Of a stretch of DNA of 64,000 nucleotides, positions 22,297 to 52,500 are shown in pieces. A program made the translations under genes and the position numbers. Each line of letters starts with the position of its first letter. The first letter of the stretch is position 1. The stretch lies in assembly GCF_026810445.1 (NCBI RefSeq), contig NZ_CP113949.1:1-64000 (forward strand), read 5' to 3'. The stretch comes from Pseudomonas sp. BSw22131. Lineage in GTDB: Bacteria; Pseudomonadota; Gammaproteobacteria; Pseudomonadales; Pseudomonadaceae. The notes beneath the pieces are model-generated. The model made no database searches and had not been told where the DNA came from. It saw only the letters and a list, made by a program, of their open reading frames with translations.

Positions 22297-23928
22297 TCAT
22301 TGCCCGCCATCATCCCACGGCTCGTAGCGCCAACCTGTTGGTTGCCAGATGAACTGGTGCGTCAATTCCAAGGCCTGCAGAAAATCAGGATCGTGAGCAC
22401 TCACTATGAGCGCGCCTTTGAATTGTCCGAGCAACTGCTCGACTGCTTCCAAGGCCGCGATGTCGAGATGGTTGTTCACTTCGTCGAGCAGCAACAGTTG
22501 CGTCTGTTCGGGGCCGCCTGCCAGCCAGGCGAGCGTTGCGCGCAGGCGCTCGCCACCACTGAGCCGACCGAATGGCGTAGCCATCTGCCGAGCGTCGAGC
22601 CCGGCGTTGGCGAAGACCTGGCGAAAGCGGCCCTCCTCGACAGTGCCCAGCTCATTGCGTAGCACCTGCTCGATACTGTGCTCGGGGTCGAAGGTTTGAG
22701 CGTGCTGGTCGATCAGGTGAGTGCGTAAGATATGCCGGGCGATGCCGCTGGCGGGCGCCAGTTGCCCGGCTATCACCTCCAGCAGGGTTGATTTTCCGCA
22801 GCCGTTCGGCCCGATCACCGCGACTCGCATCGGGCCGTGCAGGGTGAGATCGATGAAGCGGCTGTCGGGGGGGCCGTAGGGGAGCTCGCAGTGTTCGAGC
22901 GTGACCACTTGGGTCGCGTTGGCGACCAGGCCGGTCGGGGCGAGCAGTTGGCTTGGGCGTACCGGCTCGACGTTCGCATTGGCCTGGTCGACCCGCTCTC
23001 GCGCCATTTGGCTCAGACGCGCCTGCTGGATGCGCTGATGGCCGCTGTGCTGCTCGGCGCGCTCTGCCTGCGCATTGGCGACGATGGCCGGGGTGCCTGT
23101 GGCACGCGCCACCTTACGACCATGACTGGCACTTTGCACTTCGCGCTGGCGGGCCATGGTGATCTGCTGCTCGACGCTGTCGCGTGCCGCGCGTGCCCTG
23201 ACCAGTGCAGCCTGGGCGTTGTCCTGCTCGGCCTGGCGTTGCTCGCGATAGTTGTCGTAGCCGCCGCTGTATTGAACCAGCGCGTCGCTGCGAAGCTCGA
23301 GGATACGATCGGCATGTTCCAGCAGCGCCCGGTCGTGGGAGATGACAATGCGGGTTTCCTTGCCTTGGCGCAGCTCTTTGCTCAACTGCTCGCGGGCCTG
23401 GCGATCCAGATGGTTGGTGGGCTCGTCGAGTATCAATACCCGCGCGCCGCCGAGGCGCAGACCGGCGAGCATCAGGCGTACAGTCTCGCCTCCGCTCAAG
23501 GCCTCGCTTGCGCGATCAAGCGGCAGATGGGCTAGGCCCAAGCGCGTCAGACAGGCGTGGATATCGCCCGGCAGGTTCCAGCGGTCGTCGATCAGGTCGA
23601 ACAGCGCTGGGTCGCAGGCGCCCGCCTCGACCTCTGCCAAGGCCTGCAAAGCGTTATGTACCCCCAGCAGGTCGGCAACGGTCCCGCCGATAGGCCCGAG
23701 CCATTGCGGCAAATAACCGACACTGCCAGCACACTGGACGCTGCCTTCGCTCGCGGTCAGGCGACCCGCCATGATCTGCGCCAACATCGATTTGCCGCTG
23801 CCGTTGGGCCCGACGATGCCGGTGAACTGCCTGGAGAACGTTGCGTTGAGCCCCGAGAACAGCGGCCTGCCGTCTGGCAGGCGCAAGGTCAGGTCTTTGA
23901 TGATCAAGGTGGCGTTGTCGCTACTCAT
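22297..23928 (-). CDS. ABC-F family ATPase, probable ribosomal-protection self-resistance protein
   Basis: The 543-residue soluble protein has two ABC domains and no membrane segments. Domain 1 has Walker A GPNGSGKS (about 39-46), signature LSGGE (about 164) and Walker B VLILDEPTNHLD. Domain 2 has GPNGCGKS (about 374), LSGGE and LLLLDEVNNHLD. The charged helical linker (about 230-330) is the segment that reaches the peptidyl-transferase centre in antibiotic-resistance ABC-F proteins. The signature glutamate of the second Walker B is present (DEV). It is the last gene of the biosynthetic operon, overlapping the MFS gene by 8 bases. Because lankacidins bind the peptidyl-transferase centre, a self-protection role is inferred; a housekeeping translation factor is less likely in this place. 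Confidence 0.85.
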   Translation of the reverse strand: MSSDNATLIIKDLTLRLPDGRPLFSGLNATFSRQFTGIVGPNGSGKSMLAQIMAGRLTASEGSVQCAGSVGYLPQWLGPIGGTVADLLGVHNALQALAEVEAGACDPALFDLIDDRWNLPGDIHACLTRLGLAHLPLDRASEALSGGETVRLMLAGLRLGGARVLILDEPTNHLDRQAREQLSKELRQGKETRIVISHDRALLEHADRILELRSDALVQYSGGYDNYREQRQAEQDNAQAALVRARAARDSVEQQITMARQREVQSASHGRKVARATGTPAIVANAQAERAEQHSGHQRIQQARLSQMARERVDQANANVEPVRPSQLLAPTGLVANATQVVTLEHCELPYGPPDSRFIDLTLHGPMRVAVIGPNGCGKSTLLEVIAGQLAPASGIARHILRTHLIDQHAQTFDPEHSIEQVLRNELGTVEEGRFRQVFANAGLDARQMATPFGRLSGGERLRATLAWLAGGPEQTQLLLLDEVNNHLDIAALEAVEQLLGQFKGALIVSAHDPDFLQALELTHQFIWQPTGWRYEPWDDGGQ

Positions 23929-25150
23929 CTCGATCTCTTCCCAAAACCAGGATGACCCAGCTCAGGGCCAGCGCAGCCACGCTCAACGAGGCCAGCAGCA
24001 GATTGCCCCAGACGCCGATTATCCCGCCCAGCAACGCCGTGACGGCTGCGGCGCCAGCAGCCAGTGAAGCGGCGATACCCAGCACCGTGCCACGCAGGCT
24101 TGACTGCTCGCATGCCAAGGCATGCCCGATCAAGGCAGTGTAGGCCACCCCATAGGCGATCGCGGCAAGCGCACCGAAAACCAGGGCAAGCGAGTTGTCG
24201 AGCGTGGCCGCTAGCAATGCGCAGCTTACCACCAGCACGGGGATGGCAGCGCGCGCGATCTGTGGCGCTGGATACCGGGTTTGCAAGGCTCCGGCCACCC
24301 AGATGAAGGCGATGCACATGCCGATCCCGACCACTGTTAGCAGTAGGCTGATGCTGCCTACGGTCTGGCTCTGGCGTGCGAGCATCCAGGGCAAGTACTG
24401 GTAGAAGAGATTCCAGCCGATTTGCAGCCAGAGCAGTGCAAACAATGGTCTGCGCGTGGCTGGCGAGGTGAAGCCGTTCAAGACCTGTCTGATCAGCGAT
24501 GGGCCCGTTGTTGCAGCCGGAGCTGGGGTAGAGGGCAGCAAGAAGGTCATCAACAGGCACAGCACGCTGAGGGTCAGCGCGACCTGCAAGGGCAGGAGCA
24601 GGCTTGCTCTCGGTGTATGAGCTGCTAGCAGGATGCCCGTGAGCGCAGGACCGGTGAAAAACCCCGCAGTCATGGCAAACATTACCCAGCCAATGCGTTT
24701 CATTGCGCTGTCGGGGGTCTGGACCAGCATGGCCTGTGCTACCGGGACGCTACCGGCGAAGGTGCCTCCCAGCAAGCGCCCGGCGATCAGCAAGCCCACG
24801 CTGCCCACGCTCACGGCCCAAGTGCTCAGGGCATACCCGGCGACCGACCCTGTCACCGCAAGCAGAAGCGTTGGGCGCCGCCCGATGCGGTCTGAAAGCG
24901 CACCCAGCAGAGGCGCGCCCACCATCATCGCAAAGGCGTAGCCTGCCAACAGCACGCCGTAGAGCCAGGCGGTCCGAGCGGCAGTAGGTGCGCTGCCGAA
25001 AACCACCCCCGCAGGGTCGCCCGGGTCGAGCAGCATCGGTAGCATCGGCAGCAGCAATGCCGTGCCCAGGCCGTCGATGAAAATGATCATCAGCAGGATC
25101 AAGGGCGCGGCCTTGGCAGTGGCGGGTGTCTGCGAGAGAACGGCGGTCAT
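23921..25150 (-). CDS. MFS drug/proton antiporter (DHA1-type), probable product exporter
   Basis: The 409 residues form about 12 transmembrane helices. Motif A is present in the loop between helices 2 and 3 (GALSDRIGRRPTLL, about 82-95), with the N-terminal helix IIFIDGLGTALLLPMLPMLL. The gene lies in the biosynthetic operon, 58 bases after the isochorismatase-like gene and overlapping the ABC-F gene. Export of the polyketide product is inferred from context. An efflux gene is also found in the Streptomyces lankacidin cluster, as I recall. Confidence 0.85.
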   Translation of the reverse strand: MTAVLSQTPATAKAAPLILLMIIFIDGLGTALLLPMLPMLLDPGDPAGVVFGSAPTAARTAWLYGVLLAGYAFAMMVGAPLLGALSDRIGRRPTLLLAVTGSVAGYALSTWAVSVGSVGLLIAGRLLGGTFAGSVPVAQAMLVQTPDSAMKRIGWVMFAMTAGFFTGPALTGILLAAHTPRASLLLPLQVALTLSVLCLLMTFLLPSTPAPAATTGPSLIRQVLNGFTSPATRRPLFALLWLQIGWNLFYQYLPWMLARQSQTVGSISLLLTVVGIGMCIAFIWVAGALQTRYPAPQIARAAIPVLVVSCALLAATLDNSLALVFGALAAIAYGVAYTALIGHALACEQSSLRGTVLGIAASLAAGAAAVTALLGGIIGVWGNLLLASLSVAALALSWVILVLGRDRDE

Positions 25151-25208
25151 GGCTGGCTCCTTGCGAAAAAGGTGCGAGTGGGCATGGTGTCAGGTGCGGC
25201 AATCCGAG

Positions 25209-25790
25209 TCATTCGCCGTAGGTCCTCAGGTAGCGGCCATCGAGAAAGCGTTGGCTAAGCGCCAGGTAATCGCATCGCTCCGACTGCGCCATGGTTTCGA
25301 AGAACAACATCTCGCGGGTGATCAGTTCCACACCGTTGCGTGACATGCGCGAGAGCGCGACCTCGTGATCCAGGACGCTGCGGGACGCCACTGCGTCTAC
25401 CACAACCGAAACCTGGTCACCGCGTGCGCGTAGCGCCAGTGCCGATTGCAGGATACACACGTGGGTTTCCACACCCGCGAAAATCCAGTGATTGCCGGGC
25501 GTAGCGGTACGGAAGATGTCGATCCCCCGTTCATCGAGCACATTGAAGTGGCATTTGGAGAATGTTGTGCAAACACCTGCTGCCTTGCGTAGTCGTGCTG
25601 GCAGCGCGCCCAGCTTTTCATGGCAGACTAGAGCAACGGGCAGCTCGATTTCCTGGGCAAGCTCCGCCAGCCAGCAGCAATGCTCCAGCACGCGGCTAGC
25701 GTCCTGGATCATGGGCAGAAGATCGACTTGCATGTTGTTGATGATCAGGGTTTTTTTGCCATGGGCACGGGAAGGGATCGAAGATGTCAT
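25209..25790 (-). CDS. Isochorismatase-like cysteine hydrolase homologue (LkcH-like)
   Basis: The 193-residue protein has the isochorismatase-like alpha/beta fold: a first strand IINNMQ, Lys79 (FSKCHFN) and the nucleophile Cys112 in the motif GVETHVCILQSALALRARG. The first-strand acidic residue of the usual Asp-Lys-Cys triad is Asn19 here, so hydrolase chemistry may be altered or lost. It lies 7 bases after the FAD enzyme gene. An isochorismatase-like gene (lkcH) sits in the Streptomyces rochei lankacidin cluster, which supports the cluster assignment; its chemical role is not known to me. Confidence 0.8.
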   Translation of the reverse strand: MTSSIPSRAHGKKTLIINNMQVDLLPMIQDASRVLEHCCWLAELAQEIELPVALVCHEKLGALPARLRKAAGVCTTFSKCHFNVLDERGIDIFRTATPGNHWIFAGVETHVCILQSALALRARGDQVSVVVDAVASRSVLDHEVALSRMSRNGVELITREMLFFETMAQSERCDYLALSQRFLDGRYLRTYGE

Positions 25791-25797
25791 GCAAGCC

Positions 25798-27201
25798 TCA
25801 TTGCAAGTAATGGCGCATCACGCGCGGTGCGAGACGCTCGACGGCGCCCATTTTTTCGGCGATGCGCAGCAGGCGCTGGTCCAGTTGGCGTATCAGTTTC
25901 CCGGACGCCGATTCAACGCCCATCAGGTCCTTGACCAGCTCGAACTGGATGCGTGCACTGGCATTGCTGCCTTGGTCCACTGACGCGCCGAAACGCTGGG
26001 CCAGCACCAGACCTGAGGTCAGGGCGCCTTCATGGCCGCCATAGGAGAAGTCGGTTCCGCAGTACCAGATTCGTTCACGGCCCTGGATCGCCCTTATCAG
26101 GGAGCGCCGATGCAGGTCGAGTGGTCGCAGCTTGGGCAGCTTCCACTGCTTGCGCAGGATGACCTTGGATGGGTCCAGCACCATCTTCGGGTCGAACGTC
26201 ACGTAAAGCGGCGTGGATGAGGGCTCGAAGTGGGTGACTACTCGGGTCAGGGTCCCCCAGGCATGGTTCGCCTCGGCCGGTGCGTCTGCGGCTTTGACGA
26301 AGACGCAGTAACTGTCGGGCGAGCCGTGGGCGACCGCTGCGCCGTCACTGTGCAGGATGGCTTCGACCGGAACATATTCGTACGCCCCGAGCAGGGTTGT
26401 CTGTTCGGGCGTGGGCGTCTCGATCAGGCGCAGCGCCTGATCGGCGTGGGTCGCCAGTACTACCTGGTCGAAATCCTGTGATCCTGCGAGTGTGCTGACC
26501 TCCACGCCCCGCCCGTGTGGACGGACAGCCGTCACTGGGGTATTCAGGCGCACCCGCGGGCCGAGCACGCGATGCATGATTTTCAGGTATCCATCGATCC
26601 CGCCTGTGGCTTTGCGCCAGTAGGCGGGCGAGAAGAACGACAGCAGGTTCATGCTGAAGGAGACCGCGCAGTACACCAGGCTGTAGTCCAGTGAGGGACC
26701 ATTGCATCCGGAGTACACGGTCAACAGCGGGAGCAAGGCTTGGTGGACAAAGCTGGAGTCGTAGCCCCGCTCCCTGACGAAATCCCCCACCGACCAGCTC
26801 TTGTAGCGTTCCTGGTGGAGGCTGACCTCAACCATGTCCTGATGAAACCGATCGAATGCCTGTCGCAGCGCCGGACTCAATGCTTTGCCGGTGTGCTGGT
26901 TGCTCCATAGCTCGGAGGCGTCGGGGTCCAGGCAACTGAATGACAAGGGCGCGACGAAGGTTCCCACATCGAGCGCCTTGAGATGCGCCATCAAATTGGG
27001 TGCGAGCCGCTCCGTGAAATATTCGACACCCATGTCGGCATGGATTAGCTTGCCCTCATGTATCAGGGTGTGGGTGAAAGCGTGGCCACCCAACTGCTCG
27101 CCCGCCTCGAACAGGGTGACCTGGTGCAGCGCGGCGAGATGCCAGGCAAGCGTCGCGCCTGCGGTCCCGCCACCAACGATAGCGATTCGTTGTGGTTTCA
27201 T
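25798..27201 (-). CDS. FAD-dependent amine-oxidase-like enzyme, candidate LkcE-type amide oxidase/macrocyclase
   Basis: The 467 residues begin with a dinucleotide-binding motif GGGTAGATLAWHL (about 10-22) followed by the FAD-contacting EAGEQLGGHA. They end with the C-terminal FAD motif around YCGTDFSYGGHEGALTSGL (about 385-403). The fold is that of NAD(P)/FAD oxidoreductases of the amine-oxidase/phytoene-desaturase group. It overlaps the acyltransferase gene by four bases (ATGA). In lankacidin biosynthesis the FAD enzyme LkcE oxidises the glycine-derived amide to an acyl imine and closes the ring by a Mannich reaction. A protein of this class inside an otherwise matching cluster is therefore the likely ring-closing enzyme. 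Sequence-level orthology to LkcE could not be tested. Confidence 0.75.
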   Translation of the reverse strand: MKPQRIAIVGGGTAGATLAWHLAALHQVTLFEAGEQLGGHAFTHTLIHEGKLIHADMGVEYFTERLAPNLMAHLKALDVGTFVAPLSFSCLDPDASELWSNQHTGKALSPALRQAFDRFHQDMVEVSLHQERYKSWSVGDFVRERGYDSSFVHQALLPLLTVYSGCNGPSLDYSLVYCAVSFSMNLLSFFSPAYWRKATGGIDGYLKIMHRVLGPRVRLNTPVTAVRPHGRGVEVSTLAGSQDFDQVVLATHADQALRLIETPTPEQTTLLGAYEYVPVEAILHSDGAAVAHGSPDSYCVFVKAADAPAEANHAWGTLTRVVTHFEPSSTPLYVTFDPKMVLDPSKVILRKQWKLPKLRPLDLHRRSLIRAIQGRERIWYCGTDFSYGGHEGALTSGLVLAQRFGASVDQGSNASARIQFELVKDLMGVESASGKLIRQLDQRLLRIAEKMGAVERLAPRVMRHYLQ

Positions 27202-28085
27202 CGCGATGCCTCTTTCGATTGGTGATGGGCGTCTATGGCAGCGATAAGGCGCGTAAGTACCTGGCCTGGGCCCGGCTCGATGAAGTCGAGCAGTGAATAA
27301 CGTTGCCTCAGCACTTGGATTGTCTGCAGCCAGCGCACCGGGCTGGTCAGCTGGAAAACGATTTCTTCGAGCAGATGGGTGTCAGGTACCGGTCCGCCAT
27401 GGGTGGTGGAAATCAATGGACAGGTCCCGGGGCTGAAAGTCACCCGCTCCACATAGCGACTCAGGGCTATGCGTGCGGTTTCCATGTACCGGGAATGAAA
27501 CGCCCCGCTGACATTCAGCTGCACCGCGCGCAGGCCGCGTTGTTGAAGGTCGTGTGCTGCGCGCTCGATGGCCTGGCTCGGACCGCTGAGCACGGTTTGC
27601 TCCGGCCCGTTCACGTTGGCAATGTCGAGACTGTCCAGTCCCTGTTCGAGCAGGCAGGCCTCCAGGCCCTGGGCGTCGATGCCCATCACCGCAAGCATCG
27701 CCCCGTCCCCGGCAGCCTTCATCAGCTGGCCACGCTCGATCACCAGTTTCAAGGTGTCTGCGAAACCGAGCCGGCCGCTGGCGTGGATGGCGCCGAACAG
27801 CCCCAGGCTGTGGCCAAGCATCAGGTCGGCTCGATCTATATCGCGGTCCTGGCGCATTGCCTCGAAGCTCATCGCGCTGACGACGAATACGGCAGGCTGC
27901 GTGAAAGCGGTGTCGGCAAGTCTGCCGGCATCTTCGAGCAACTCGGCTAGCCGCAGGCCCAGCAGTGTCTCAGCGATTTCGGTCATCTCGCGGAACCTGG
28001 GCAGAAGCTCCAGCCCCATTCCAGGAAATTGCGAGCCTTGGCCAGGAAAGACGATTGCCAGCGCGCCAGGTCGTTCAAAGTTCAT
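27198..28085 (-). CDS. Free-standing malonyl-CoA acyltransferase (trans-AT)
   Basis: The 295-residue protein has the acyltransferase motif FPGQGSQFPGMG (about residues 13-24) and the active-site GHSLG (about 93-97, catalytic Ser). The four synthase proteins contain no AT domain, so this enzyme must load their ACPs in trans, most likely with malonyl units. The ATG at 28085 (MNFERPGALAIVFPGQG) is chosen over an upstream in-frame ATG at 28136 because it gives the family N-terminus; it overlaps the preceding synthase gene by 11 bases. It corresponds in role to LkcD of the lankacidin pathway. Confidence 0.93.
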   Translation of the reverse strand: MNFERPGALAIVFPGQGSQFPGMGLELLPRFREMTEIAETLLGLRLAELLEDAGRLADTAFTQPAVFVVSAMSFEAMRQDRDIDRADLMLGHSLGLFGAIHASGRLGFADTLKLVIERGQLMKAAGDGAMLAVMGIDAQGLEACLLEQGLDSLDIANVNGPEQTVLSGPSQAIERAAHDLQQRGLRAVQLNVSGAFHSRYMETARIALSRYVERVTFSPGTCPLISTTHGGPVPDTHLLEEIVFQLTSPVRWLQTIQVLRQRYSLLDFIEPGPGQVLTRLIAAIDAHHQSKEASR

Positions 28086-31000
28086 GCAGCACCACCTTCG
28101 GGCGTGCCGCAGGCTTTTGCCCGCGCGCCACATCATGGGTTGGGTTCAGTGAAACCAAGCCTTGGATACGCAGGACCGGACTCATGTCCTGAGCAAGAAA
28201 CTCGAAATCGTGGGTCACGCTCCGGGCGGTTTTTTCGCGTCGCTGGCAGCGCACGTAGGCAATCGCCGCATGAGTGGACAGCCGCTCGACCCTCTCGGCC
28301 ATCCAGGGTACCCAGGCCGGACCTGCCTCCCCGTCGTCGAGCAGTAGCGCGGTCTGCAGACCGGCGTCGATGATTGCGGGCGACAGTGGCAAAGCGAAGC
28401 TGCGCGCGGGCAGCACACTCGCCTGCACCTTGTCGTCTCCAACACAGGCCCAGCGCAGCAGGCGCAGTGAGTCACCGTAGCAATAGCCCATGCGTGCGAA
28501 CTTCTGGTAGATCGCTGTGCGCTGCAGGTAATGGCCCGAGTCCAGCGTCCAAGGCTGCTGCTGGTCGTGGCTGTGCTGCTCCAGAGTGGAGGCGCTGGCG
28601 ACAGTAGTGTTGGCGATGGTCACTGCAAACCTATCCGCTGTCTGCTCCGTGCCGACGCATTCAAACGACTGGGCGCGGGCCTCGAATCGCACATCCATCA
28701 GTCCAGCGGTTGAAGTGTCAGCCAGCAGGCGTGCCAAGTAGTAGCCTGCCGGTACTATCGCCTGTCCGTCGATGTTGTGGTCGGCCAGCAGCGTGTCAAG
28801 GCTTTCGAAACCCGACTCCCGAGCCTGCACCCAGAGTGGCGTGCCGTCGAAGCAATATTCCGGCAGCTCGAGCGGTTCATCGGCTGCGAACAGGGCGTGC
28901 CAATCTGGCAGTGCACCACCCAGATAAGCCAGGCGAACGCTGTCCAAGTCCAGGTCCATGTCTTGCTGCTGGCCCGGCATGCGCATCGAGTTCATCGCGT
29001 TTGCATCACAACCCGCCACTGCAGTGCTTTCACCGTTACCACGCAGGTCTGCCAACGATAGCGCCAACTGGCGGCGCAGATCCTGCGTCGAGTCGCTGCA
29101 CACGGCTAGGCGGTGGCGTAGGTGATCACGCTGGTGGGCAAGGCTGGAGGCCAGGCGTGGCAGAGGCACATCGTTTTGCTCCAACCATTGCAATAGCGCG
29201 ATACGAGAGGCATCCAGTGCCTGAACACTATGGGCCGACAGCATGATCAGCTGTCTCACCGATGTCGGATGTCTCGCCGGCCTCGAGGTCTGGATCGCAG
29301 AGCTCAGCAGCACGTGTGCGTTGGCACCTCCTGCGCCAAAGGACGACAACGCCGCGCGATAGGGTTGGTTATCGCGTACAGGCCATGGCCTGGCATGGCG
29401 ATTGACCATCAGCCCGGTCGCCTGTGGCTCCAGTAATGGATTGGCCGGGTATGCATGCAGCGACGGGAGCAGTGTGCGATGACGCATCTGCAGCAGGATC
29501 TTCACTGCACCCGCCAGTCCGGCTGCCGACTCCAGGTGGCCGATGTGGCCCTTTATCGAGCCGATCGGCAGACGCGAGGTCTCTGTGCGTCCCTCGCCAA
29601 GCACCGCCGCCAGGCTCTTGAACTCGATCGGATCGCCGAGCGCGGTGCCGGTGCCGTGAGCCTCGACGTAGTCCAGTTGCGTCGGAGCCCACTTGGCCTT
29701 GTCCAAGGCCTCGCGAATCAGGCGGGACTGCGCCTGCGGGTTGGGTGCGCTGTAGCCGTTGGATTTGCCTCCGGCATTTAGTGCCGAGGCTTCTATCACC
29801 CCGTACAACGGATCCTCATCCGCCAGAGCCCGGTCGAGCGGTTTGAGCAGCATGGCGCACACCCCTTCGCCGTCGACGAAACCACCGGCGCCCTCGCCGA
29901 ACGGTCGGCATACGCCCTCTAGCGAGAGCATGTGCAAGCGGCACAAGTCGTCGTACTGTCGAGGGTGTGCGATCACGTTCACGCCTCCGACCAGAGCCAT
30001 GTCGCAGTCGCCCAGGCGCAACGCATTCACCGCAGTGTGCAGAGCGGTCAAGGAGGCAGAGCATGCGGTATCGACCGCCATGCTCGGACCGTGCAGATCA
30101 AAGTGGTATGACACCCGATTGGCGATCGACCAATGCAGTGATGTCGGCCTGGGGCTGTCGCTGTCTATAGGTGTCAGGTTGGCATAGCCGGTATTCATCA
30201 CGCCGACGTACACCCCGGTTCGGCTGCCCTTGAGTCGCGATGCCGGATGAGCACCATGCAGAAATGTCTGGTACGCGGTCTCCAGGAACAACCGTTCTTG
30301 GGGATCCATCAGGGTTGCGTCCATTGGTGTGATGTTGAAGAACCCGTGATCGAACCTGTCGACGTCACTGAGAAATGCACCGACACCAGCATAGGTCGAC
30401 GTTTGCATGTGCTCCCGGGGCCAGCGTGCGGGAGGTACCGGACTGCTCAGAGGCACGTCCTGCAGCAGTCGCTCCCAGAGCTGTGCGGTGTCCTCTGCAC
30501 CCGGGAAACGTCCGCGGTAGCCGATGATGGCGATCGCTTGCGCCTGCGCTGGTTGATCGGTGCGCAGGTCAGCAGGCTGTGGTCGTTGCCCGGTCGTGGC
30601 GTGTGCATGACCCGCAGCTGTTGCCTTGGCTTGCGCGATCGTGGCGTGCAGGCCCAGATGACCGGCCAGTTGCGCGATGCTTGGGTATTCGAACAGCAAG
30701 GTCGCGGGCAGATAGCCGTAACGAGCCTGCAACGGCTTGATCAACTCCAGGCTGATCAGCGAGTCGATGCCGTAGCTGGCGAATGCAGCGTCATCGTCGA
30801 GTTCGTCGAGGGACATGTGCATGACCTTGGCGATGCTTTCACGCACGAAGTGCAGAGTGTCGGACTCCCCACCAGGCTGCGCGGCGGGTGCAGCGGGTGC
30901 AGCGGGTGCAGGGGCGCTGCTGTCCACAACCTTGAAGGCTTCTGGGTGGCACTGCTCCAGATAGCCCGCCAGGTCGGCGAGGGTGGGGTATTCGAAGAAC

Positions 31001-41983: not shown

Positions 41984-44900
41984 GAGGCCTCCAGGTCTGC
42001 GGCGGTTTCGAACCAGTAAGGTTTGCTGTCGAAGGCATAGCCAGGTAGCGAAATGCGTCTGCCGGGGCCCTTCAGGTAAATGCGTCTGAGCGTGTCGCGG
42101 CCCTGCAGATAAGCGGACGCAAGCTCTGTGACGACGCTGTTGTCGAGCTCCAGCAGCGGCCCTTCGTTGACGTGGCTCCTGAGGGCGTGGGGCTCGACGT
42201 AGTGCAAGGCCGCGCTGCTCAACTGCTCGATCAATGAGGGCAGATCCATGGCGCTTACCACCAGTCGGTGCTCGAAGCTTTCACGCCCTATTGCCAAGGT
42301 CCGGGCCACGTCTGCCAGGGGCAGGCGCGGGTTGCTGCGCAGATGCTCGATCAGCTCATCGCGCATGCGTTCAAGCGATGCCTTGGTTCTGGCGCACAGG
42401 CCTACCAAGTGCAGTTGCCCAGGTTGTGCCGTGACTTGTGGTGTCGGTGCATCGGCCTGCGTTAGCACCACATGCGCATTGGTGCCGCCAAAGCCGAAGG
42501 AACTGATGCCTGCGACACGGTCGTTCGACCGCCAGGGCTGCTTTTCGGTGAGCAGTGAAAAAGGCGTGTCCTGTAGGTCGATTTCCCGATTTTGCTGACG
42601 GAAGTTCAAGTTGGCAGGCAGCCAGCCGGTCTCTATCGCCTTGATGACCTTGACCAAGGCCGGTACGGCTGCTGCAGGTTCCAGGTGGCCCGTGTTGGTC
42701 TTGACCGCTCCGACCAGCACGCTTGCCGGTAGCTTTGCGGGGGCTTGCTGGGCGATGAAGGCACTCAGGGCTTGCAGCTCTATCGGGTCACCAAGGCGCG
42801 TCCCGGTGCCATGCGCCTCGATGTAGCCCAGGCGCTCTGCCAACTCGGGCGTGTACGCCGCCAGCAACAGGTCACACTGGGCGTTCGGGTTGGGGGAAGT
42901 CAGCGAATTGGCACGCCCCCCGTGATTGACCTGGCTGGCGACGATCCGCGCTCTGATGTTGTCGCCATCGCGCACCGCATCGGCGTAGCGCTTGATGAGG
43001 AAGGCGCCACACCCTTCACCGCGCACATAGCCATCAGCCGATTCATCGAACGTGGCGCAGCGAGCGCTCGCCGACAACACACCCATGCTGGCGGCCGCGT
43101 GGGTTACGACCGGGTCGATCATCAGGCTGACTCCGCCACACAGTACCGTATCGCACTCTTGTTCCTGCAGGGCCTTGATGCCGCGATGCAAGGCGACCAG
43201 TGTTGACGAGCAAGCGGTGTCGACCGTTTCGCTGGGGCCACTGAAACCGAATTGGTAGGACACCCGGTTGGAGAGCATCGCATGAGCGTTGCCCGTGGCG
43301 GCGAAGGGATGTTTTGAGCGACCCCACAGCTGCAGCAGCACCTGGTAGTCGTTGAACTGCACGCCCGCGAAGACACCGGTGCGGGTGATGTCGCCTGGTC
43401 GATAGCCCGCGTCGAGGCAGGCGTTGTATGCCGTTTGCAGGAACAGTCGATGCTGGGGATCCATCAGCATCGCCTCACGTGCCGAGAGACCAAAGAAGCG
43501 TGCATCGAAATGCTCGATATTCCGCACCGCACCGCCGTAGAGGTCCTCCTCGGGCCAGCGCGTCATCGGCACGATGGCGCTGCGCCCATGCAGGAGCGAG
43601 TCCCAGAATGTCTCGACAGTGTCCCCACCTGGCAACGTGGCGGCCATACCGATGATGGCATAGCCTGTGAGCGATTCATCGGGATGGCCGGCGTCGGGTG
43701 CTCTGCTCGTGCTCAGGTCTTGTGTGTCGAATGCCCGTTGGCTGTCGAGATAGCGGACCAACTGACTCGGCGTGTTGTAGCGGAACAGTGCGCTGGCAGC
43801 CATCGGCACCGAGAACCGAGCCTGTACGTTTTTCGCCAGTTCTTGTAGGCCGACCGAGTCGAGGCCCATCTCGCCCCAACGCGCCTCAGGATCAATCCTC
43901 TGCGCAGGAATGGCGGTGAGCGTCTCGAGCAGTTCGTTCACTGCCTCACGCAATGCATCAGGTGAGTTCGACTCGCAAGCCCGATTGCCTGCGGGATCCT
44001 GGCGAGGTGGTGCGAGCAACCGTTCGGTGATGCGTCCGGTATCGCCGCCAAGTACCGCCACCGCCCACACATCTGCGGCCAGTGCTGAGGGCAGTCGCAG
44101 TGCCAGATCTACCCCAGTGTTCGCTTCAAGGGGCTCGAGCCCGGTTTCATGTGCCATGAACTGAAGCGTCTGGGTATCGACTTGCATGCCAGTGTCTTTC
44201 CAGAGCGGCCATGCGACGCTGAGGGTGCGGCCATGGCGCTGCCCGAGCGCCACCGAACGGCTGCGCGCCTGGGCGAAACCATCGAGCCAGGCGTTGGCGT
44301 AGGCGTAGTCGGTCTGCCCTGCGTTGCCGAATGCCGCAGCGATTGAAGAGAACAGCATGAACAGGTCCAACGGGGCCGAGCCGATCGCTTCGTCCAGCGC
44401 CAGGGTGGTCTCGATCTTGCTGCGTGCGACTTGTTCAAAGTCTTCGAACGCCTTGTCGGTCAGTACCCCATCGCGCAGCACGCCGCTCGCGATCAGCACA
44501 CCGTTCAGTGGGCTCATTTGGGCGAGCAATGCCCTGGCTGCCCCGACGTCTGCCAGGTCAGCGCTGAAGTAGCGAACCGTCCCGCCCTGCGCGCTCATCT
44601 GTTGGCACTCATGCCTGATGTGCGCGCTGTCAGGTCGCCGTCCTACCAGGCTGATATGGGCACCGAAGTCACTCGCCAGTCGGCGAGCGACGGCTTGGCC
44701 GATTCCGCCGAAGCCTCCGGCGATCAGGTAATGTCCGCCCTGACGCCATAGCGTCGGGGGTGCGACTGGCAACTCTATCGGGCGCCATTGCAGGCGTTGG
44801 CTTTGCGTGCCCTGCAGACGTTCGTGCACGTGGCCGCTGACTGGTATGAACGCTAGGCGTGCCAAGGCCTGCTGGAGAACATCGGGCTGCGCCAGCGAAC

Positions 44901-47900
44901 CGCCGACCTGCAGTGACAAGATCCTCAGCTGCGGTTGTTCCTTGCAAAGACTGCGCAGCAAGCCGACGAGACCTGCTTGGGCATCGGGTTCGTTTGGCAG
45001 ACAGACCATCAGTGATCTTGGGCCTTGCAGATGAGCAATGGCTTGGAACAGTGCCCAGTGCAGCGCGCGTTGGGTAGGCTCCTGCGCGATAGGGGTACTC
45101 GATGTGTTGCCCAGGGCAATGACGATGGGATGCTCTTGCGGGATGTCGTCGAGTGCGCGCTTGCAGGCTTGTACGAGGTTGGTGGTACGGGGGGCGCCGC
45201 AGGACGATGTTGGCGCCGGGTCGACCGGGTCCAGCACGACGATCCGATGCCCATGGCCTCGGAGTTGTCGATCCAGCTCCGGATCGACAATTAAGGTGAA
45301 GGGGCTGGTGAACGTGCGCGTTGTCTCGGACGCATTGGACGTGAAGTCCGCAACTGCGAGCAGAAGCCGATCATCGGTCTCTGGTGGTGGATTCGAGCTT
45401 TGTGGTTCGTGTGATACACGTAGTTCATTGGCCCACAGTGGTATTTTCTCGAAAGGATAACTCGGCAGGTCGAGCATCTTGCCCGGTGGGTTGTGGTGCC
45501 GCCAGTCGATGCTTTCCCCTGCCTGAAAGCGGCTGGCTGCCTGCTCGAGCTGAGCGCTGAAGGTCGCTTGGTGCGCAGTCGACGATGCCAGTGCGTTGGC
45601 CAGGTCATCCAGGTCGGTGACCAAGGCGCAGAACCTGTAGCGCATTGCCGGACGGGTCACGTTTAACGTGTAGGCGACGTCCTCCAGGCACAGCCCCTCC
45701 TGCTTAAGCAGGTAGTCGAGGATGGCGGCCTTGAGCGCATTCAACGACGCTTCGCTTTGCGCGCTGATAGCCACTGCCATGGGTACGGCGTCATGTCGTG
45801 CCGGTGCATCCACCTGCGGCGGCATGTATTCGCCCACGATGACATGGGCGTTGGCACCACCAGCGCCGAAGCTGCTCAGACCGGCGTAGCGACGCTGGCC
45901 GTCAGGTGTGTTCCAAGGCACAAGTTCGGTCTGCGGACGAACTGTTCCCTCACCGACGGGTATCAATGGATTGGCGATGTCGCAACCGATCGTAGGGGCG
46001 AGCGAGCGGTGACGAAGTTGCAACACGATCTTGGCCAACCCCGCCAGACCGGCGGCAGGCTCCAGATGGCCGATATTGCTTTTGATCGATCCTACGGCGC
46101 AGTGCCCGTAATCGCGTGCCCCATATATGCCGTTCAGCGCTTCGATCTCGATCGGATCTCCTAAGCGAATACCGGTGCCATGCGCCTCGATGTAGGTGAT
46201 GTCGTGTGCCTGGCGGTCGGCATCGCGCAGTGCGGCTTCGATGACCTTGGTTTGCGCTGCTGCCGAGGGTACCGTGAAGCCGCTGCTGCGCCCGCCTGCG
46301 TTAACCGCGCTACCATGGATGACCGCATGGATGCGTGCGTCGGCATCGATTGCCTCCTGCAAGGGCTGAAGGACGAAGACCACGTGCCCTTCACCTGGGA
46401 CATACCCGTCTGCCTGTGCACCGAAGGTATGACAGCGGCCCGTCGGGCTGAGGAATTTGCCCTGGCTGAGCACCCGATATTTATGTGGGCTGACCATGAT
46501 ATTGGCTGCGCCTACGATTGCCTGTCGGCACTCGCCGCGGCGCAGTGCTGCGATGGCCAGATGGAGGGCCGTCAGCGATCCTGAGCACATGGTATCCAAG
46601 GTCAGCGATGGCCCACGGAAGTCGAAATGATAAGAAAGCCGGTTGGCCTGGGCAGAGAACGAGGTGTCGATGGGCTGGGACGCTTCCAATTGCTGGTAGT
46701 GTCCGTACATCGCTGCGATGAAAACCCCTACGTCTGGAGTCGGCGCGGCGAAGAATCCTGAGTTTTCCAGCGCATGGTGAGTCGTCTGCAGCAGTTTGCG
46801 CTCGGCTGGGTCCATGCGCTCGGCAGCTTTGAACGTGGTTTGGAAGAACAGCGGGTCGAACATCTCGACATTGTCGATGAAGCCGCCATGGCGGGCATAG
46901 CTACGGCCCGCGGCGCTGGCATCGCTGTCATAGAACGCGCGCCAGTCCCAGCGTTGCGATGGGACGGGGCGCACTGCCAATCGCGCTTCTGCCAGCAGCG
47001 ACCACAATTCTTCCATGCTGGTAGCACCTGGAAAAGAGCCCGCCATACCGACGATGGCAATATCCTGCGCCCGCCAGTGCGGCTCGTCCTGGGTGTGAGC
47101 GCGCACATGTGGGGAGGGGGCTCGCCAAGTGAGCTCGGGAGGGGACTGGGGGGCCACCGCGGGCTCGGGCTGCAGTCCAATGATCGCCGCGCGAGCCTCT
47201 ATGTAGGCCGACAGGCTCGAGATACTCGGGTGCTCGAACAGGATGGAGCGGGGGACTCTAGTGACCATGCCTGCCTCGGCCAGGCGGCGTTCGATCTCTG
47301 CGGCAATGCTGATCGCCGCGACTGAGTCAGCGCCGTGATCCAGCACGTTTTCAGCCTCTGCGAGATTTTCCAGGCCAGTAAACTTGGCAATGGCTTGGCG
47401 CACCAGCAGCTTAGTATCCAGCGTTGGCGCGCGACTGGCTTTCGCCGCTTGTCGACCGGAGGGTGCCTCAGTCAGCAGCCTGCCAGCGTAAATCAGGGCG
47501 TCGGCGCAGCGGGCGGCAAGCAGCTCATCCATCGCCGCCAGGGCTTTGTCAGGGGCCATAGGCAACAGCAGTCCGCGGTCCTGGCCCATCGCCATACCGC
47601 TCACATCCCAGATACCCCAGCCGATGGTTGACCAGCCCGTATGGCCTTGCAGGCATTGCCGCTCAGCCAGAGCATGCAGGTAGGCGTTGGCTGATGCGTA
47701 GGCCGTCTGTCCGGCCAGACCGACGGTTGCCGATAGCGAGCCGAACATGACCACGCGGCGTATTGCCATCTCGTTCTGCAGCTGCGCAAGGGCAAGGGCC
47801 GGCGCGATCTTGGTCTTCAGGACCTTTTCCAAAGAGGAAGTCGTCTGCGATTGGAAAAGGCCATCTTCCAGATGACCGGCGAGGTGAAAGACGGTGTCCA

Positions 47901-48684
47901 CCCGACCGTAGCGTTCATGGAGCGTCGAAAGCGTCTGTCGCAGGCTCTCGGTGTCCGTCGCATCGCCTTGGAAGTAGCCTGAGCAACCCAGCGCTTTCAA
48001 GCGCGAGCGTCGTTCATCGCTCAAGGGCGAGCGGCCCATGACGAAAACCGGTTGCTGGCCGACGATATGTTCCAGCAGGTGCTGGCCGATGCCACCCAAG
48101 CCGCCGATGATCAGCGCCGGCCCGTCCTGGCTTCTGGGTTCGTTCGCGAGCGGCGTTACTTGTTGGTGCAGATGAGCCACTAGGCGCTTGCCACCCTCGA
48201 CTCGCAGGCGCCGAAGCCCTTCCTGCTGCATTAGCCCGCAGATGGTGAGTGACTTTGCCAGGCTCGCATCGCTTTCCAGCCAGGTGTGAGCCAGTTGTTC
48301 GGTTTCGCAGCGCAGGGATTGCAACAAGCCGTGCGCAGCAGCTGCGTCGGCGTTGGCGATACCGCTGAAAAGCAAAAGCTTCAGAGGCGTGCCCGTCGCC
48401 AACAGCGCGGCGATGATGCGATGAATCGACTCGAACTGGCTTTGCGCCAGCTGCCATGGGCCAGAGGTTTCGGTTTCGGCTACAGGCACCAGCACAGTGT
48501 CGCCCGCCGCGAGGGCGCTGCCTGCGATCCGGTCGGCATCGATCGGAATGCAGCCGTCGGGGGTATCGCAGTGTTGGCCATCTGCTATTGCAAGCCACGT
48601 TCTACCGGTCGAGGCAGGGCTGCAAGATTCGGCAGACCATACGATTTTCGCGGTGTGGCAAGTCGAACGCTCATCGGATTGCAT
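41980..48684 (-). CDS. trans-AT PKS: KR-ACP-KS-KR-ACP-KS (LkcF-like)
   Basis: The 2234 residues read: a KR with N-terminal structural half (about 30-405; GGLGGIG, Ser316, Tyr329), ACP (Ser454 in GADS), KS (about 540-950, Cys700 in DTMCSGS, His835, His873), KR (about 1130-1500; GGFGGIG, Tyr1460), ACP (Ser1610 in GLDS) and KS (about 1675-2075; Cys1825 in DTACSS, His1958, His2000), with a post-KS linker at the end. There is no AT. It is the first gene of the operon but starts mid-module and ends on a bare KS, so it must take its chain from the KS-DH protein (28075-33522) and pass it to the ACP-KS-ACP-TE protein. The ATG at 48684 has an AGAAGG ribosome site. A candidate lux box lies about 60 bp upstream. 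Confidence 0.93.
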   Translation of the reverse strand: MQSDERSTCHTAKIVWSAESCSPASTGRTWLAIADGQHCDTPDGCIPIDADRIAGSALAAGDTVLVPVAETETSGPWQLAQSQFESIHRIIAALLATGTPLKLLLFSGIANADAAAAHGLLQSLRCETEQLAHTWLESDASLAKSLTICGLMQQEGLRRLRVEGGKRLVAHLHQQVTPLANEPRSQDGPALIIGGLGGIGQHLLEHIVGQQPVFVMGRSPLSDERRSRLKALGCSGYFQGDATDTESLRQTLSTLHERYGRVDTVFHLAGHLEDGLFQSQTTSSLEKVLKTKIAPALALAQLQNEMAIRRVVMFGSLSATVGLAGQTAYASANAYLHALAERQCLQGHTGWSTIGWGIWDVSGMAMGQDRGLLLPMAPDKALAAMDELLAARCADALIYAGRLLTEAPSGRQAAKASRAPTLDTKLLVRQAIAKFTGLENLAEAENVLDHGADSVAAISIAAEIERRLAEAGMVTRVPRSILFEHPSISSLSAYIEARAAIIGLQPEPAVAPQSPPELTWRAPSPHVRAHTQDEPHWRAQDIAIVGMAGSFPGATSMEELWSLLAEARLAVRPVPSQRWDWRAFYDSDASAAGRSYARHGGFIDNVEMFDPLFFQTTFKAAERMDPAERKLLQTTHHALENSGFFAAPTPDVGVFIAAMYGHYQQLEASQPIDTSFSAQANRLSYHFDFRGPSLTLDTMCSGSLTALHLAIAALRRGECRQAIVGAANIMVSPHKYRVLSQGKFLSPTGRCHTFGAQADGYVPGEGHVVFVLQPLQEAIDADARIHAVIHGSAVNAGGRSSGFTVPSAAAQTKVIEAALRDADRQAHDITYIEAHGTGIRLGDPIEIEALNGIYGARDYGHCAVGSIKSNIGHLEPAAGLAGLAKIVLQLRHRSLAPTIGCDIANPLIPVGEGTVRPQTELVPWNTPDGQRRYAGLSSFGAGGANAHVIVGEYMPPQVDAPARHDAVPMAVAISAQSEASLNALKAAILDYLLKQEGLCLEDVAYTLNVTRPAMRYRFCALVTDLDDLANALASSTAHQATFSAQLEQAASRFQAGESIDWRHHNPPGKMLDLPSYPFEKIPLWANELRVSHEPQSSNPPPETDDRLLLAVADFTSNASETTRTFTSPFTLIVDPELDRQLRGHGHRIVVLDPVDPAPTSSCGAPRTTNLVQACKRALDDIPQEHPIVIALGNTSSTPIAQEPTQRALHWALFQAIAHLQGPRSLMVCLPNEPDAQAGLVGLLRSLCKEQPQLRILSLQVGGSLAQPDVLQQALARLAFIPVSGHVHERLQGTQSQRLQWRPIELPVAPPTLWRQGGHYLIAGGFGGIGQAVARRLASDFGAHISLVGRRPDSAHIRHECQQMSAQGGTVRYFSADLADVGAARALLAQMSPLNGVLIASGVLRDGVLTDKAFEDFEQVARSKIETTLALDEAIGSAPLDLFMLFSSIAAAFGNAGQTDYAYANAWLDGFAQARSRSVALGQRHGRTLSVAWPLWKDTGMQVDTQTLQFMAHETGLEPLEANTGVDLALRLPSALAADVWAVAVLGGDTGRITERLLAPPRQDPAGNRACESNSPDALREAVNELLETLTAIPAQRIDPEARWGEMGLDSVGLQELAKNVQARFSVPMAASALFRYNTPSQLVRYLDSQRAFDTQDLSTSRAPDAGHPDESLTGYAIIGMAATLPGGDTVETFWDSLLHGRSAIVPMTRWPEEDLYGGAVRNIEHFDARFFGLSAREAMLMDPQHRLFLQTAYNACLDAGYRPGDITRTGVFAGVQFNDYQVLLQLWGRSKHPFAATGNAHAMLSNRVSYQFGFSGPSETVDTACSSTLVALHRGIKALQEQECDTVLCGGVSLMIDPVVTHAAASMGVLSASARCATFDESADGYVRGEGCGAFLIKRYADAVRDGDNIRARIVASQVNHGGRANSLTSPNPNAQCDLLLAAYTPELAERLGYIEAHGTGTRLGDPIELQALSAFIAQQAPAKLPASVLVGAVKTNTGHLEPAAAVPALVKVIKAIETGWLPANLNFRQQNREIDLQDTPFSLLTEKQPWRSNDRVAGISSFGFGGTNAHVVLTQADAPTPQVTAQPGQLHLVGLCARTKASLERMRDELIEHLRSNPRLPLADVARTLAIGRESFEHRLVVSAMDLPSLIEQLSSAALHYVEPHALRSHVNEGPLLELDNSVVTELASAYLQGRDTLRRIYLKGPGRRISLPGYAFDSKPYWFETAADLEAS

Positions 48685-48744
48685 GGCATTGCCTTCTGGC
48701 TGCGGGCGGGAACAGGGATGCTAGGGCAGTGGCCAGATGCAAGA

Positions 48745-48764
48745 AATTACAAGAATTGGTAGGT
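48745..48764. promoter_or_regulatory. Candidate lux box upstream of the PKS operon
   Basis: Read toward the PKS operon it is ACCTACCAATTCTTGTAATT. It shares CTACCA with the better box before luxI and has CT-N12-AA instead of CT-N12-AG. It lies about 60 bases before the first synthase gene, nearly the same distance as the luxI box to luxI. Confidence 0.45.
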
Positions 48765-48875
48765 GATTAATCGTGGCGTTTATTCGTGTACGCGATGCGT
48801 GGTCTGACCGGGGCTGCGAGACGGGCAAAAGCGCTCTACACTGTTAAGCCGGTGGATGACCAGGAGGGCTCGTCG

Positions 48876-49589
48876 ATGGGATTGGGAATGTTGGAGTGGT
48901 ATAGCGACGTCATGAGAGAAATTTCGGCGGCTCATGAAATCGAAAATCTGGTGTCGATCCTGCACCGTGAGGCCATAGAGTGTGGCTTCGAACATGTTGG
49001 TCTGGCCTTGCAAGCGCCCACGCCTTTCACTCGGCGTAAGACGCTCATCATGGGCACCTATCCGCTTGAGTGGCAGGAGCGCTATGACGAGCAAAGTTAT
49101 GGTGCGATTGATCCTGTGATTGAGCACAGCATGGCCAAAGCGGATGTCTTGAACTGGAGTGATGTTCAAGCCAGCTGCCACCGACGTTTCTTCGCCGAGG
49201 CCGCTCAGTTTGGCCTGGTTCATGGAATGACCTACAGTGCCTTGGCGACCAGCCGTGATACGCACGTCATCTCTTTTGCTCGAGGCCGTGGCCGGGTCAG
49301 TCAGATCGAGCAACTGGAGCTGGGGGTGAAGCTGCGTTGCCTGAGCGATGCCAGCCGCCAGGCGTTGGCGCGGTGGAACCTGTCGGCAGTCGAACGCTGC
49401 GTCCTTTCCGACAGGGAAGTGGAAATCCTCAGATGGACTGCAGACGGCAAATGCGTCAGTGATATCGCCCAGATCCTGTGCATCTCCGATAACACGGTGA
49501 ATTTTCATATCAAGAAGATCGTCGGTAAGTTTGGATCGCCCAACAAGGCACACGCGGCCGCACACGCCGTGGCATTGAATCTGATCTGA
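48876..49589 (+). CDS. LuxR-family acyl-homoserine-lactone receptor/regulator
   Basis: The ATG at 48876 is preceded by AGGAGG at ideal spacing and gives a 237-residue protein; an upstream in-frame start at 48786 would add 30 unconserved residues. The autoinducer-binding domain (about 5-150) keeps the signature residues Trp66, Tyr70, Asp79-Pro80 and Trp94. The LuxR helix-turn-helix (about 176-235) contains LSDREVEILRWTADGK and SDNTVNFHIKKIVGKF. It is divergent from the PKS operon with a 191-bp shared promoter region, and luxI follows in the same direction. It is the probable quorum-sensing activator of both. Confidence 0.93.
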   Translation: MGLGMLEWYSDVMREISAAHEIENLVSILHREAIECGFEHVGLALQAPTPFTRRKTLIMGTYPLEWQERYDEQSYGAIDPVIEHSMAKADVLNWSDVQASCHRRFFAEAAQFGLVHGMTYSALATSRDTHVISFARGRGRVSQIEQLELGVKLRCLSDASRQALARWNLSAVERCVLSDREVEILRWTADGKCVSDIAQILCISDNTVNFHIKKIVGKFGSPNKAHAAAHAVALNLI

Positions 49590-49596
49590 ACGCTCG

Positions 49597-49616
49597 CGCT
49601 ACCAGAAGAGGTAGTT
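49597..49616. promoter_or_regulatory. lux box upstream of luxI
   Basis: CGCTACCAGAAGAGGTAGTT has a perfect dyad CTACC-N6-GGTAG and fits CT-N12-AG, the LasR/LuxR-type operator pattern. It starts 8 bases after the luxR stop codon and lies 57 bases before the chosen luxI ATG. It suggests positive autoinduction. Confidence 0.75.
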
Positions 49617-49673
49617 GTCGTTGATCGCTCGGTCATGGGGTAATTGCGTGCTTTCAAACTTCGGGTGATGCAG

Positions 49674-50243
49674 ATGGATATTCTGGCGGGCAGCGCGAGT
49701 GAACTGGGCTACAGTGTCTACCAAGCACTTATACGTTTTCGCTACGAGGTTTTCATCCGCAAGCTGCGCTGGCGCCTACCATTAGATCGACAGGCGGCCC
49801 AAGTAGAGACCGATCAGTTCGATACGCCTCATGCGCGCTACATCGTTGGCCTGGAGGATGGACAGGTCGTGAGTTGCGCTCGATTATTGCCCACGCTCAA
49901 ACCTTATCTACTGGGAGAGGTTTTTGCGTGGATCAGCGATGCTCCGTTGCCGGTCGATCCACATGTGTGGGAAGTATCGCGCTTCGCTGCTGCCAAACAG
50001 GCCGGTCCTGATGTTGGGGCTGCGCTCTTTCGCCATGCGCTGTTAGAAGCGGGTGCATCGGGGGCCGATACTGTCGTGGCGGTCACGACGGTGCAGTTGG
50101 AAAGATACTTTCGCAGGCACGGCATTTGGCATGAGCGTATGGGCCCGACGCACCGACACGAGAACGACACACTGGTGGCGCTGCGTTTTCAGGCGGGGCA
50201 GCAAGGTGCCTTGCCGTGCCCACGACATAAGATGTCGGCTTGA
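49674..50243 (+). CDS. Acyl-homoserine-lactone synthase, LuxI family
   Basis: From the ATG at 49674 the 189-residue protein keeps every invariant LuxI residue: Arg23, Phe27, Trp33, Glu45, Asp47, Asp50, Arg70, Phe84, Glu100 and Arg103. Starting here puts the first conserved arginine at residue 23, as in RhlI. In-frame alternatives are ATG 49668 and TTG 49644; no strong ribosome site decides between them. It makes an N-acyl homoserine lactone from S-adenosylmethionine and an acyl carrier; the residue at the acyl-chain pocket cannot be read reliably for chain length. With the luxR gene it forms a cargo-borne quorum-sensing pair. Confidence 0.94.
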   Translation: MDILAGSASELGYSVYQALIRFRYEVFIRKLRWRLPLDRQAAQVETDQFDTPHARYIVGLEDGQVVSCARLLPTLKPYLLGEVFAWISDAPLPVDPHVWEVSRFAAAKQAGPDVGAALFRHALLEAGASGADTVVAVTTVQLERYFRRHGIWHERMGPTHRHENDTLVALRFQAGQQGALPCPRHKMSA

Positions 50244-50792: not shown

Positions 50793-50812
50793 ACGTACAA
50801 ATTTTATTCAAA
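50726..50812 (-). repeat. Left-end TnsB-type binding sites
   Basis: Box L1 (50793-50812) reads TTTGAATAAAATTTGTACGT on the minus strand, 7 bases inside the ACA terminus. Box L2 (50726-50746) reads TTTGGAATAAAGTTTGGACA and lies about 46 bp further in. Spaced sites here against abutting sites at the other end are the known Tn7 left/right asymmetry. Confidence 0.8.
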
Positions 50813-50819
50813 AGAGACA

Positions 50820-50827
50820 GCGACCGG
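50820..50827. repeat. Target-site duplication, distal side (GCGACCGG)
   Basis: Identical to 19242-19249 and directly abutting the ACA terminus. The DNA that follows is the original sequence downstream of glmS and includes a 12-bp perfect palindrome AAGCGGCCGCTT (about 50854-50865). Confidence 0.8.

Positions 50828-51337: not shown

Positions 51338-52500
<1,163 letters not shown>

Follow-up and report, generated by a model that had tools for sequence, protein, structure and literature searches.

Lankacidins are ribosome inhibitors, unusual in having an all-carbon ring that is closed by an oxidative Mannich enzyme. Their cluster, lkc, resides on plasmid pSLA2-L of Streptomyces rochei. It was reported that plasmid pSGRIFU1 of S. 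griseofuscus DSM 40191 is very similar to pSLA2-L, and that lankacidins, tentatively identified in S. griseofuscus by high-resolution mass spectrometry, were gone in plasmid-free strains (PMC8443760). The chejuenolide cluster (che) of Hahella chejuensis is described as six genes (PMC9030710), and macrocyclization by an amine oxidase was reported for cheE (PMC9881209). In Pseudomonas F113, lkcABCDEFGJ were reported in 2013 (PMC3570484); lankacidin-like clusters are thus not new to the genus. The present analysis concerns another such cluster, located in the first 64,000 nucleotides (the window) of a 5.74-Mb contig of Pseudomonas sp. BSw22131 (genome G000).

The window cluster is very probably a trans-AT nonribosomal peptide synthetase/polyketide synthase (NRPS/PKS) system of the lankacidin/chejuenolide family, with a predicted N-acylglycine start, iterative KS modules, and an LkcE-type closure to a 17-membered carbocycle. 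In the tree of LkcG KS domains its lineage lies outside both lankacidin and chejuenolide. LkcE-type proteins (E≤1e-60) occur in four of 398 Pseudomonas genomes, namely that of the window, G115, G072, and the divergent G029, and in one of 390 genomes sampled from the order, which is the window's own.

Genes and domains of the window cluster

The cluster comprises nine genes on the minus strand (22297–48684), whose ends overlap or nearly abut, transcribed in the order F, G, A+B, C, D (AT), E, H, MFS, and ABC-F. Domain calls were made with Pfam and motif alignment, and all comparisons with lkc use the S. griseofuscus copy. The LkcF-type PKS (41980–48684, 2234 residues) reads KR-ACP-KS-KR-ACP-KS and is 39% identical to LkcF over 2161 aligned columns. 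The LkcG-type PKS (38963–41983, 1006 residues) reads ACP-KS-ACP-TE, with the TE motif GWSLGG, and displays 35% identity to LkcG and 36% to a protein of H. chejuensis KCTC 2396; its N-terminal ACP, placed by alignment at 41714–41983, carries the motif GVDSILAA. The next protein (33506–38962, 1818 residues) is an LkcA-LkcB fusion, C-A-PCP-KS-DH, 34% identical to LkcA over 1632 aligned columns and 32% to LkcB, and alignment to LkcB places the fused DH at its C terminus (33527–34276). The Pfam score of its C domain is slightly under the cut-off, and the SHxxxDG motif is present, as it is in G072, G029, and both Streptomyces clusters compared. The LkcC-type PKS (28075–33522, 1815 residues) reads KR-cMT-ACP-ACP-KS-DH and is 41% identical to LkcC over 1778 aligned columns.

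The remaining genes encode smaller proteins. A discrete trans-acting AT of the LkcD type (27198–28136, 42% identity) carries GHSLG and GAFH motifs. It is followed by a predicted FAD amide oxidase/macrocyclase of the LkcE type (25798–27201, 47%), an LkcH-type isochorismatase-like protein (25209–25790, 42%), a predicted MFS exporter (23921–25150, 34% to the lkc MFS protein), and an ABC-F protein (22297–23928, 35% to the second lkc ABC-F) that may protect the ribosomes of the producer. No AT domain is detected by Pfam within any of the four synthases. A C-A(Gly)-PCP-KS start and a single discrete AT are therefore present by Pfam and motifs, the glycine code having been read by eye: the A-domain signature, D-I-L-Q-L-G-V-I-W at what we take to be the code positions, is of the glycine type. 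The first-pass annotation of this DNA, made from the letters, had described four AT-less synthases with these domain orders, a discrete AT, an amine-oxidase-like protein, and an isochorismatase-like protein in one close-packed gene set, all of which Pfam and the motifs confirm.

A search of plasmids by tblastn with the LkcE-type cyclase matched 132 records, the two best being Streptomyces clusters whose genes follow the lkc order. Each of the nine window proteins has a counterpart in S. griseofuscus, at 34–47% identity. Shared with lkc are all nine gene types, the grouping of KS domains by position, the catalytic residues of LkcE, the SHxxxDG motif, and the presence of ABC-F and MFS genes. The window differs in the LkcA-LkcB fusion, in the extra ACP on LkcG, in the order F-G-AB-C-D-E-H-MFS-ABCF, and in having one ABC-F gene where lkc has two. 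Its cluster also lacks an FkbH-like gene, a discrete ACP, a pyrroloquinoline quinone (PQQ) dehydrogenase, and pqq genes, and it is adjoined by luxR and luxI.

The claim that the locus matches lankacidin "domain for domain" therefore fails, on the fusion, the extra ACP, the gene order, and the missing FkbH-like and PQQ-dehydrogenase matches. Two of the domain orders given with it were also wrong for S. griseofuscus: LkcG there is KS-ACP-TE rather than ACP-KS-ACP-TE, the N-terminal ACP being absent (the same holds for Streptomyces NBC_01224 by alignment), and LkcC, given as KR-MT-ACP-ACP-KS, ends in a DH. The S. griseofuscus lkc cluster has five KS domains by Pfam; four are given for lkc in a figure legend (PMC6162330).

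LkcB is fused to LkcA in the window, G072, and G115, the last judged by a full-length match, and is separate in G029 and both Streptomyces clusters. The N-terminal ACP on LkcG is common to the window, Hahella, a Solemya symbiont, Photorhabdus, and Haematospirillum; among the proteins compared, those of the two Streptomyces, of Amycolatopsis, and of G029 lack it. The G029 locus (L023–L025) differs further from the window: its LkcG begins with the KS, its proteins are 35–49% identical to those of the window, and its order, A-B-C-D-E-H-F-G-ABCF, is near that of Streptomyces, with no MFS match at E≤1e-20. A cluster protein of F113 has been described as KS-T-TE (PMC8719888), which is the G029 form and not the window form. 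F113 (P. fluorescens/kilonensis), compared by description alone, and G029 share with the window the genus and the core enzymes. In a non-exhaustive search of the literature, no description of the fused, Tn7-associated lineage was found. Redox-cofactor regions at 13% similarity, from Pseudomonas papers that mention lankacidin (PMC8704066, PMC12171316), were considered and set aside, not being of the window cluster type.

The LkcH-type protein shows a separate difference. In its (T/S)HVC motif the Cys is present in the window (25209–25790), G072, and G029, and is replaced by Val in both Streptomyces proteins (L013 31214–31768 compared); the role of LkcH may thus differ between lineages.

Lineage, starter unit, and ring closure

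To place the KS domains, 60 were taken by profile and two short ones were dropped, leaving a tree of 58. The clades are lkcA (6 domains), lkcC (5), lkcF1 (5), lkcF2 (5), and lkcG (18), with a window KS inside each, KS1 and KS2 of the LkcF-type protein falling in lkcF1 and lkcF2; 19 other KS rows fall outside. The window KS domains thus group with those of LkcA/C/F/G at five of five positions. This grouping and the nine lkc counterparts allow the earlier proposal, a lankacidin-like carbocycle or a close analogue, to stand as a prediction.

In a tree of 21 LkcG-KS rows, the window lineage and the metagenomic protein P0096 form the sister group of the remaining LkcG rows, among them Streptomyces and H. 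chejuensis KCTC 2396 (P0097). In approximately unbiased (AU) tests, a clade of the window lineage with Streptomyces alone gave p=0.0006, with the Hahella group alone p=0.0003, and with G029 alone p=0.025, for groups that were named after the larger tree had been seen and on long branches, the join with P0096 being flagged as a possible long-branch artefact. LkcG-type proteins were also seen in the Solemya velum gill symbiont (P0099), Photorhabdus laumondii (P0102), and Haematospirillum (P0107). LkcE-type proteins were found for the first two as well, and the lankacidin family may reach animal symbionts.

The starter unit bears on the product. That of lankacidin is reported to be pyruvoyl- or lactoyl-ACP derived from 1,3-bisphosphoglycerate (PMC6162330). 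In the Streptomyces clusters a HAD-IIIC gene, in whose protein Pfam found no domain and which is taken as FkbH-like, lies with an ACP nearby. No FkbH-like (HAD-IIIC) homolog was found in G000 at E≤1e-5, a search that did not include the small ACP, and among four genomes searched a match occurred in one, G072, far from its cluster. Because no HAD-IIIC homolog was found, we infer that the N-acyl group is not lactoyl or pyruvoyl; it may be acetyl, as in chejuenolides, or another group. A PQQ-dependent dehydrogenase homolog was likewise not found in G000 at E≤1e-5, and a pqqE homolog is present elsewhere in the genome.

The cyclase matches crystallized LkcE (PDB 6f32) at E=2e-123, the best non-LkcE matches in PDB being at 4e-07. 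Its residues E60, Y177, and R320 correspond to LkcE E64, Y182, and R326, which are strictly conserved in putative LkcE-type cyclases (PMC6162330), and Q428 is also conserved. Nine lkcE homologs in lankacidin and chejuenolide clusters were reported to be 54–100% identical to the S. rochei lkcE gene (PMC6162330), a range that the window cyclase, at 47% to LkcE, falls outside. In a tree of 95 LkcE rows with weaker supports and open forks, the window lineage stands apart from Streptomyces and G029. A 40% identical LkcE-like oxidase on an Escherichia coli plasmid (L011, NZ_CP076707.1, 15686–17098) was rejected as a family member: its surroundings hold phenazine-type genes and an NRPS, and no PKS is annotated among them, so the locus belongs to another pathway, and the cyclase fold is there used within a phenazine-type cluster.

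By analogy with lkc, the A domain would load glycine and the C domain would join an acyl group to it. The single discrete AT would supply malonyl units to LkcA/C/F/G, the five KS domains would extend the chain iteratively, and the KR, DH, and cMT domains would set a methyl-branched polyene. The TE would release a delta-lactone-type chain, after which the LkcE-type enzyme may oxidize the amide N-CH2 to an N-acyl imine and drive a Mannich C-C ring closure.

Several findings weigh against this assignment. The identity to lkc reaches no more than 34–47%. The LkcA KS is unusually divergent: its window-lineage stem measures 1.5 changes per column, about 2.5–3 times as long as those of C (0.61), F1 (0.52), and F2 (0.53). 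The lactone-contact positions N179 and T397 of LkcE are S and G in the window, and the substrate may therefore differ. The 17-membered carbocycle itself is a prediction from the genes.

Some of these findings also bear on the described compounds. That the cluster makes lankacidin C or lankacidinol, as in Streptomyces, would fit the shared core enzymes and KS order, the ABC-F and MFS counterparts, and the pqqE homolog; yet the missing FkbH-like and PQQ-dehydrogenase homologs, the divergent LkcA KS, the changed lactone contacts, and the placement outside Streptomyces LkcG, with a joint clade rejected by the AU test, render it highly improbable. Chejuenolides, which carry an N-acetyl group and no beta-oxo-delta-lactone, have two points in their favor: the ACP-KS-ACP-TE form of LkcG is common to Hahella and the window, and a cluster without a lactoyl-starter protein would fit an acetyl group. 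The comparison with che covers its LkcG-type protein, which forms a separate branch in the LkcG-KS tree, and a clade with Hahella alone was rejected by the AU test. The window has nine genes plus regulators, among them ABC-F, MFS, LkcH, and LuxRI, against the six genes of che, and chejuenolides are reported to be without antibiotic activity (PMC9030710). A chejuenolide product is therefore unlikely. A separate member of the lankacidin/chejuenolide family remains the preferred assignment of the window cluster.

A Tn7-like element downstream of glmS

The cluster, with luxR and luxI, lies inside a 31.6-kb Tn7-like element that starts exactly 25 bp after the stop codon of glmS (19224). The glmS gene, the Tn7 target (17389–19224, plus strand), follows the atp operon and encodes SIS and glutamine amidotransferase domains, with 92% identity to the protein beside the G115 cluster. 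The left end (19250–19294) has a TGT terminus (TGTCGG...) and two AATARARTTTGTAC-like repeats found by repeat scan. Next come, on the plus strand, an open tnsA (19357–20211, Pfam PF08722 and PF08721), tnsB remnants in two frames (20198–21321), the first of which matches the sequence at the tnsB position after tnsA in other Pseudomonas, and a TniB/AAA-type tnsC by Pfam (21318–22103) that is apparently cut short. No catalytic domain was found in the tnsB pieces. The right end (50728–50819) has two inverted repeats and an ACA terminus (...GAGACA), and is fixed by the identity to G115, which stops exactly at 50819. Four AATARARTTTGTAC-like repeats with at most one mismatch occur in the window, versus none in 60 first-order simulations. 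A looser scan with at most three mismatches found 9 where 4.54 were expected, a number reached in 6 of 100 shuffles, so it is the near-exact copies and their positions that support the ends.

Between the operon and the right end are a luxR-type autoinducer-binding regulator (48786–49589, plus strand, Pfam PF03472 and PF00196), divergent from the operon, and a luxI-type autoinducer synthase (49644–50243, plus strand, Pfam PF00765). LuxR/LuxI signaling would control the operon. An open reading frame antisense to luxR (48780–49565, minus strand) has no Pfam match.

The distance from glmS, the TGT/ACA termini with inverted repeats, and the tnsA-tnsB-tnsC order are those of Tn7-like elements at attTn7. 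The window element differs in its tnsB pieces, its short tnsC, the lack of room for tnsD or tnsE, its 8-bp repeat, and its NRPS/PKS cargo. It is decayed, as tnsABC is not intact and the genes look broken; tnsC adjoins a remnant whose G115 counterpart is part of a longer open reading frame, IS21-type transposase-like by eye. Relatives of tnsA (E≤1e-20) occur in 43 of 298 Pseudomonas genomes, and the mere presence of a Tn7-like element is therefore nothing unusual in this genus.

The evidence for movement comes from G115. Its cluster DNA is 98.96% identical over 28.7 kb (22083–50746), compared with 80.6% for the glmS region and 88.9% for the atp-glmU region, a contrast that points to recent horizontal transfer, probably with the transposon as carrier. 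The G115 cluster also adjoins glmS and keeps luxR and luxI at 97–98%. At glmS in G026 the left end of the element is present with 44 codons of tnsA. The cluster has a G+C content of 62.5%; the corresponding figures are 57% on the atp-glmS side and 55% on the right.

Three observations do not sit well with that account. A Tn7 target duplication is 5 bp. The element is flanked by an 8-bp direct repeat (19242–19249 and 50820–50827, found by sequence comparison), which differs from that length, and a 5-bp duplication sought by eye was not seen; in the glmS flanks of 24 relatives, where an empty site was looked for, the search motif matched 2, neither with the 8-bp repeat. The left end and tnsABC of the window element were not found in G115. 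The G072 cluster, 93.2% identical, is not at glmS and has no luxI beside it; in the place of luxR is a 66-residue luxR-like piece, and a different luxR (33%) lies on the other side.

The state of the element also bears on the possibility that the cluster is a relic, silent or in decay, that yields no product. The tnsB pieces, the short tnsC, and the insertion sequences to the right would fit such a relic, as would F113, for which no detectable lankacidin was reported under the conditions tested (PMC7415375). Against it, all nine genes are open, the active-site residues inspected in the synthases, AT, and cyclase are all in place, and two further species keep full-length copies, at 98–99% and 90–96% protein identity. 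A relic is thus quite unlikely.

Other features were noted to the right of the element. An IS3-type insertion sequence (51274–52509) apparently lies inside a LysR gene, and 98% identical copies occur where a relic cluster ends in P. syringae pv. cilantro (L010) and at the glmS locus of G026. IS66-type transposase genes occupy 54154–56841. The sequence from 50828 (TGATTTTAAAGAATTAAAGCTGTCGC) resembles by eye that after glmS in G115, and may be the terminus of another Tn7-like element stacked at this site.

Putative protection genes where the synthase is missing

Among the matches listed, the ABC-F protein occurs at 76–100% identity in 9 of 398 Pseudomonas genomes. Three of the nine have the cluster (the window, G115, and G072), and six have no LkcE match at E≤1e-60 (G347, G026, G167, G366, G101, and G405). 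Gene remnants in the six were sought as tblastn matches of >55% identity in stretches fetched around the ABC-F gene. MFS is kept in four. G347 has H, MFS, and ABC-F beside glmS, with the last 28 codons of E adjoining an IS3-type copy of the type at 51.3–52.5 kb in the window; G026 has a partial H, MFS, and ABC-F; G405 has a partial H, MFS, and a broken ABC-F beside glmS; and G366 has MFS and ABC-F. G167 and G101 have ABC-F alone; for these two and G366 the absence of the synthase genes is observed, which is not the same as loss. The similarity breaks near residue 440 of E and at residues 85 and 112 of H. Because the break points differ, loss of biosynthesis seems to have occurred on more than one occasion, with the exporter and mostly the ABC-F gene retained.

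A comparable case is the bicyclomycin cluster, an antibiotic cluster beside attTn7, whose transporter stands alone at the glmS site of cluster-free P. aeruginosa strains; the authors leave loss or later gain open (PMC5930311). The chemistry is unrelated to that of the window, and the window-type remnants also keep ABC-F and have differing end points.

The retained genes support, and do not prove, a role of MFS and ABC-F in protection against the cluster product, which in the producer would be a ribosome-targeting compound. The best NCBIfam model for the ABC-F protein, ribo_prot_ABC_F, scores 277.7 bits, below the cut-off of 380. ABC-F matches at E≤1e-80 occur in 162 of 398 genomes, and those beyond the nine are at 36–42% identity among the matches listed. 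Since such relatives are common in Pseudomonas and the NCBIfam score is under the cut-off, the ABC-F gene does not by itself point specifically to a ribosomal target, and its use as a decisive sign of one is weakened. Of the two ABC-F proteins in S. griseofuscus, ABCF2 is the nearer (35%), and a search of G000 for a paralog gave the window gene alone among the matches listed.

A fuller account can be put forward tentatively, as a possibility. The window cluster may represent a third family branch, one that predates the divergence of lankacidin from chejuenolide and would make a new non-lactoyl carbocyclic antibiotic directed at ribosomes in other pseudomonads; it would have spread at glmS by Tn7-like movement under LuxI/LuxR control, with synthase-less relatives keeping ABC-F and MFS. 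The partly supported reading is of a third lankacidin/chejuenolide lineage in Pseudomonas that moved horizontally and left signs of immunity kept after synthase loss. A deep-branching Gram-negative version of the pathway offers a new cyclase, with the substrate contacts changed and the catalytic residues kept. Together with this cyclase, the LkcA-LkcB fusion and the added LkcG ACP may help to show how so few KS domains carry out eight rounds of extension. How such clusters move between species, and how the synthase is lost while immunity is retained, could be tested with the kept protection genes and the Tn7-like setting, which also suggest an action of the product on pseudomonads.

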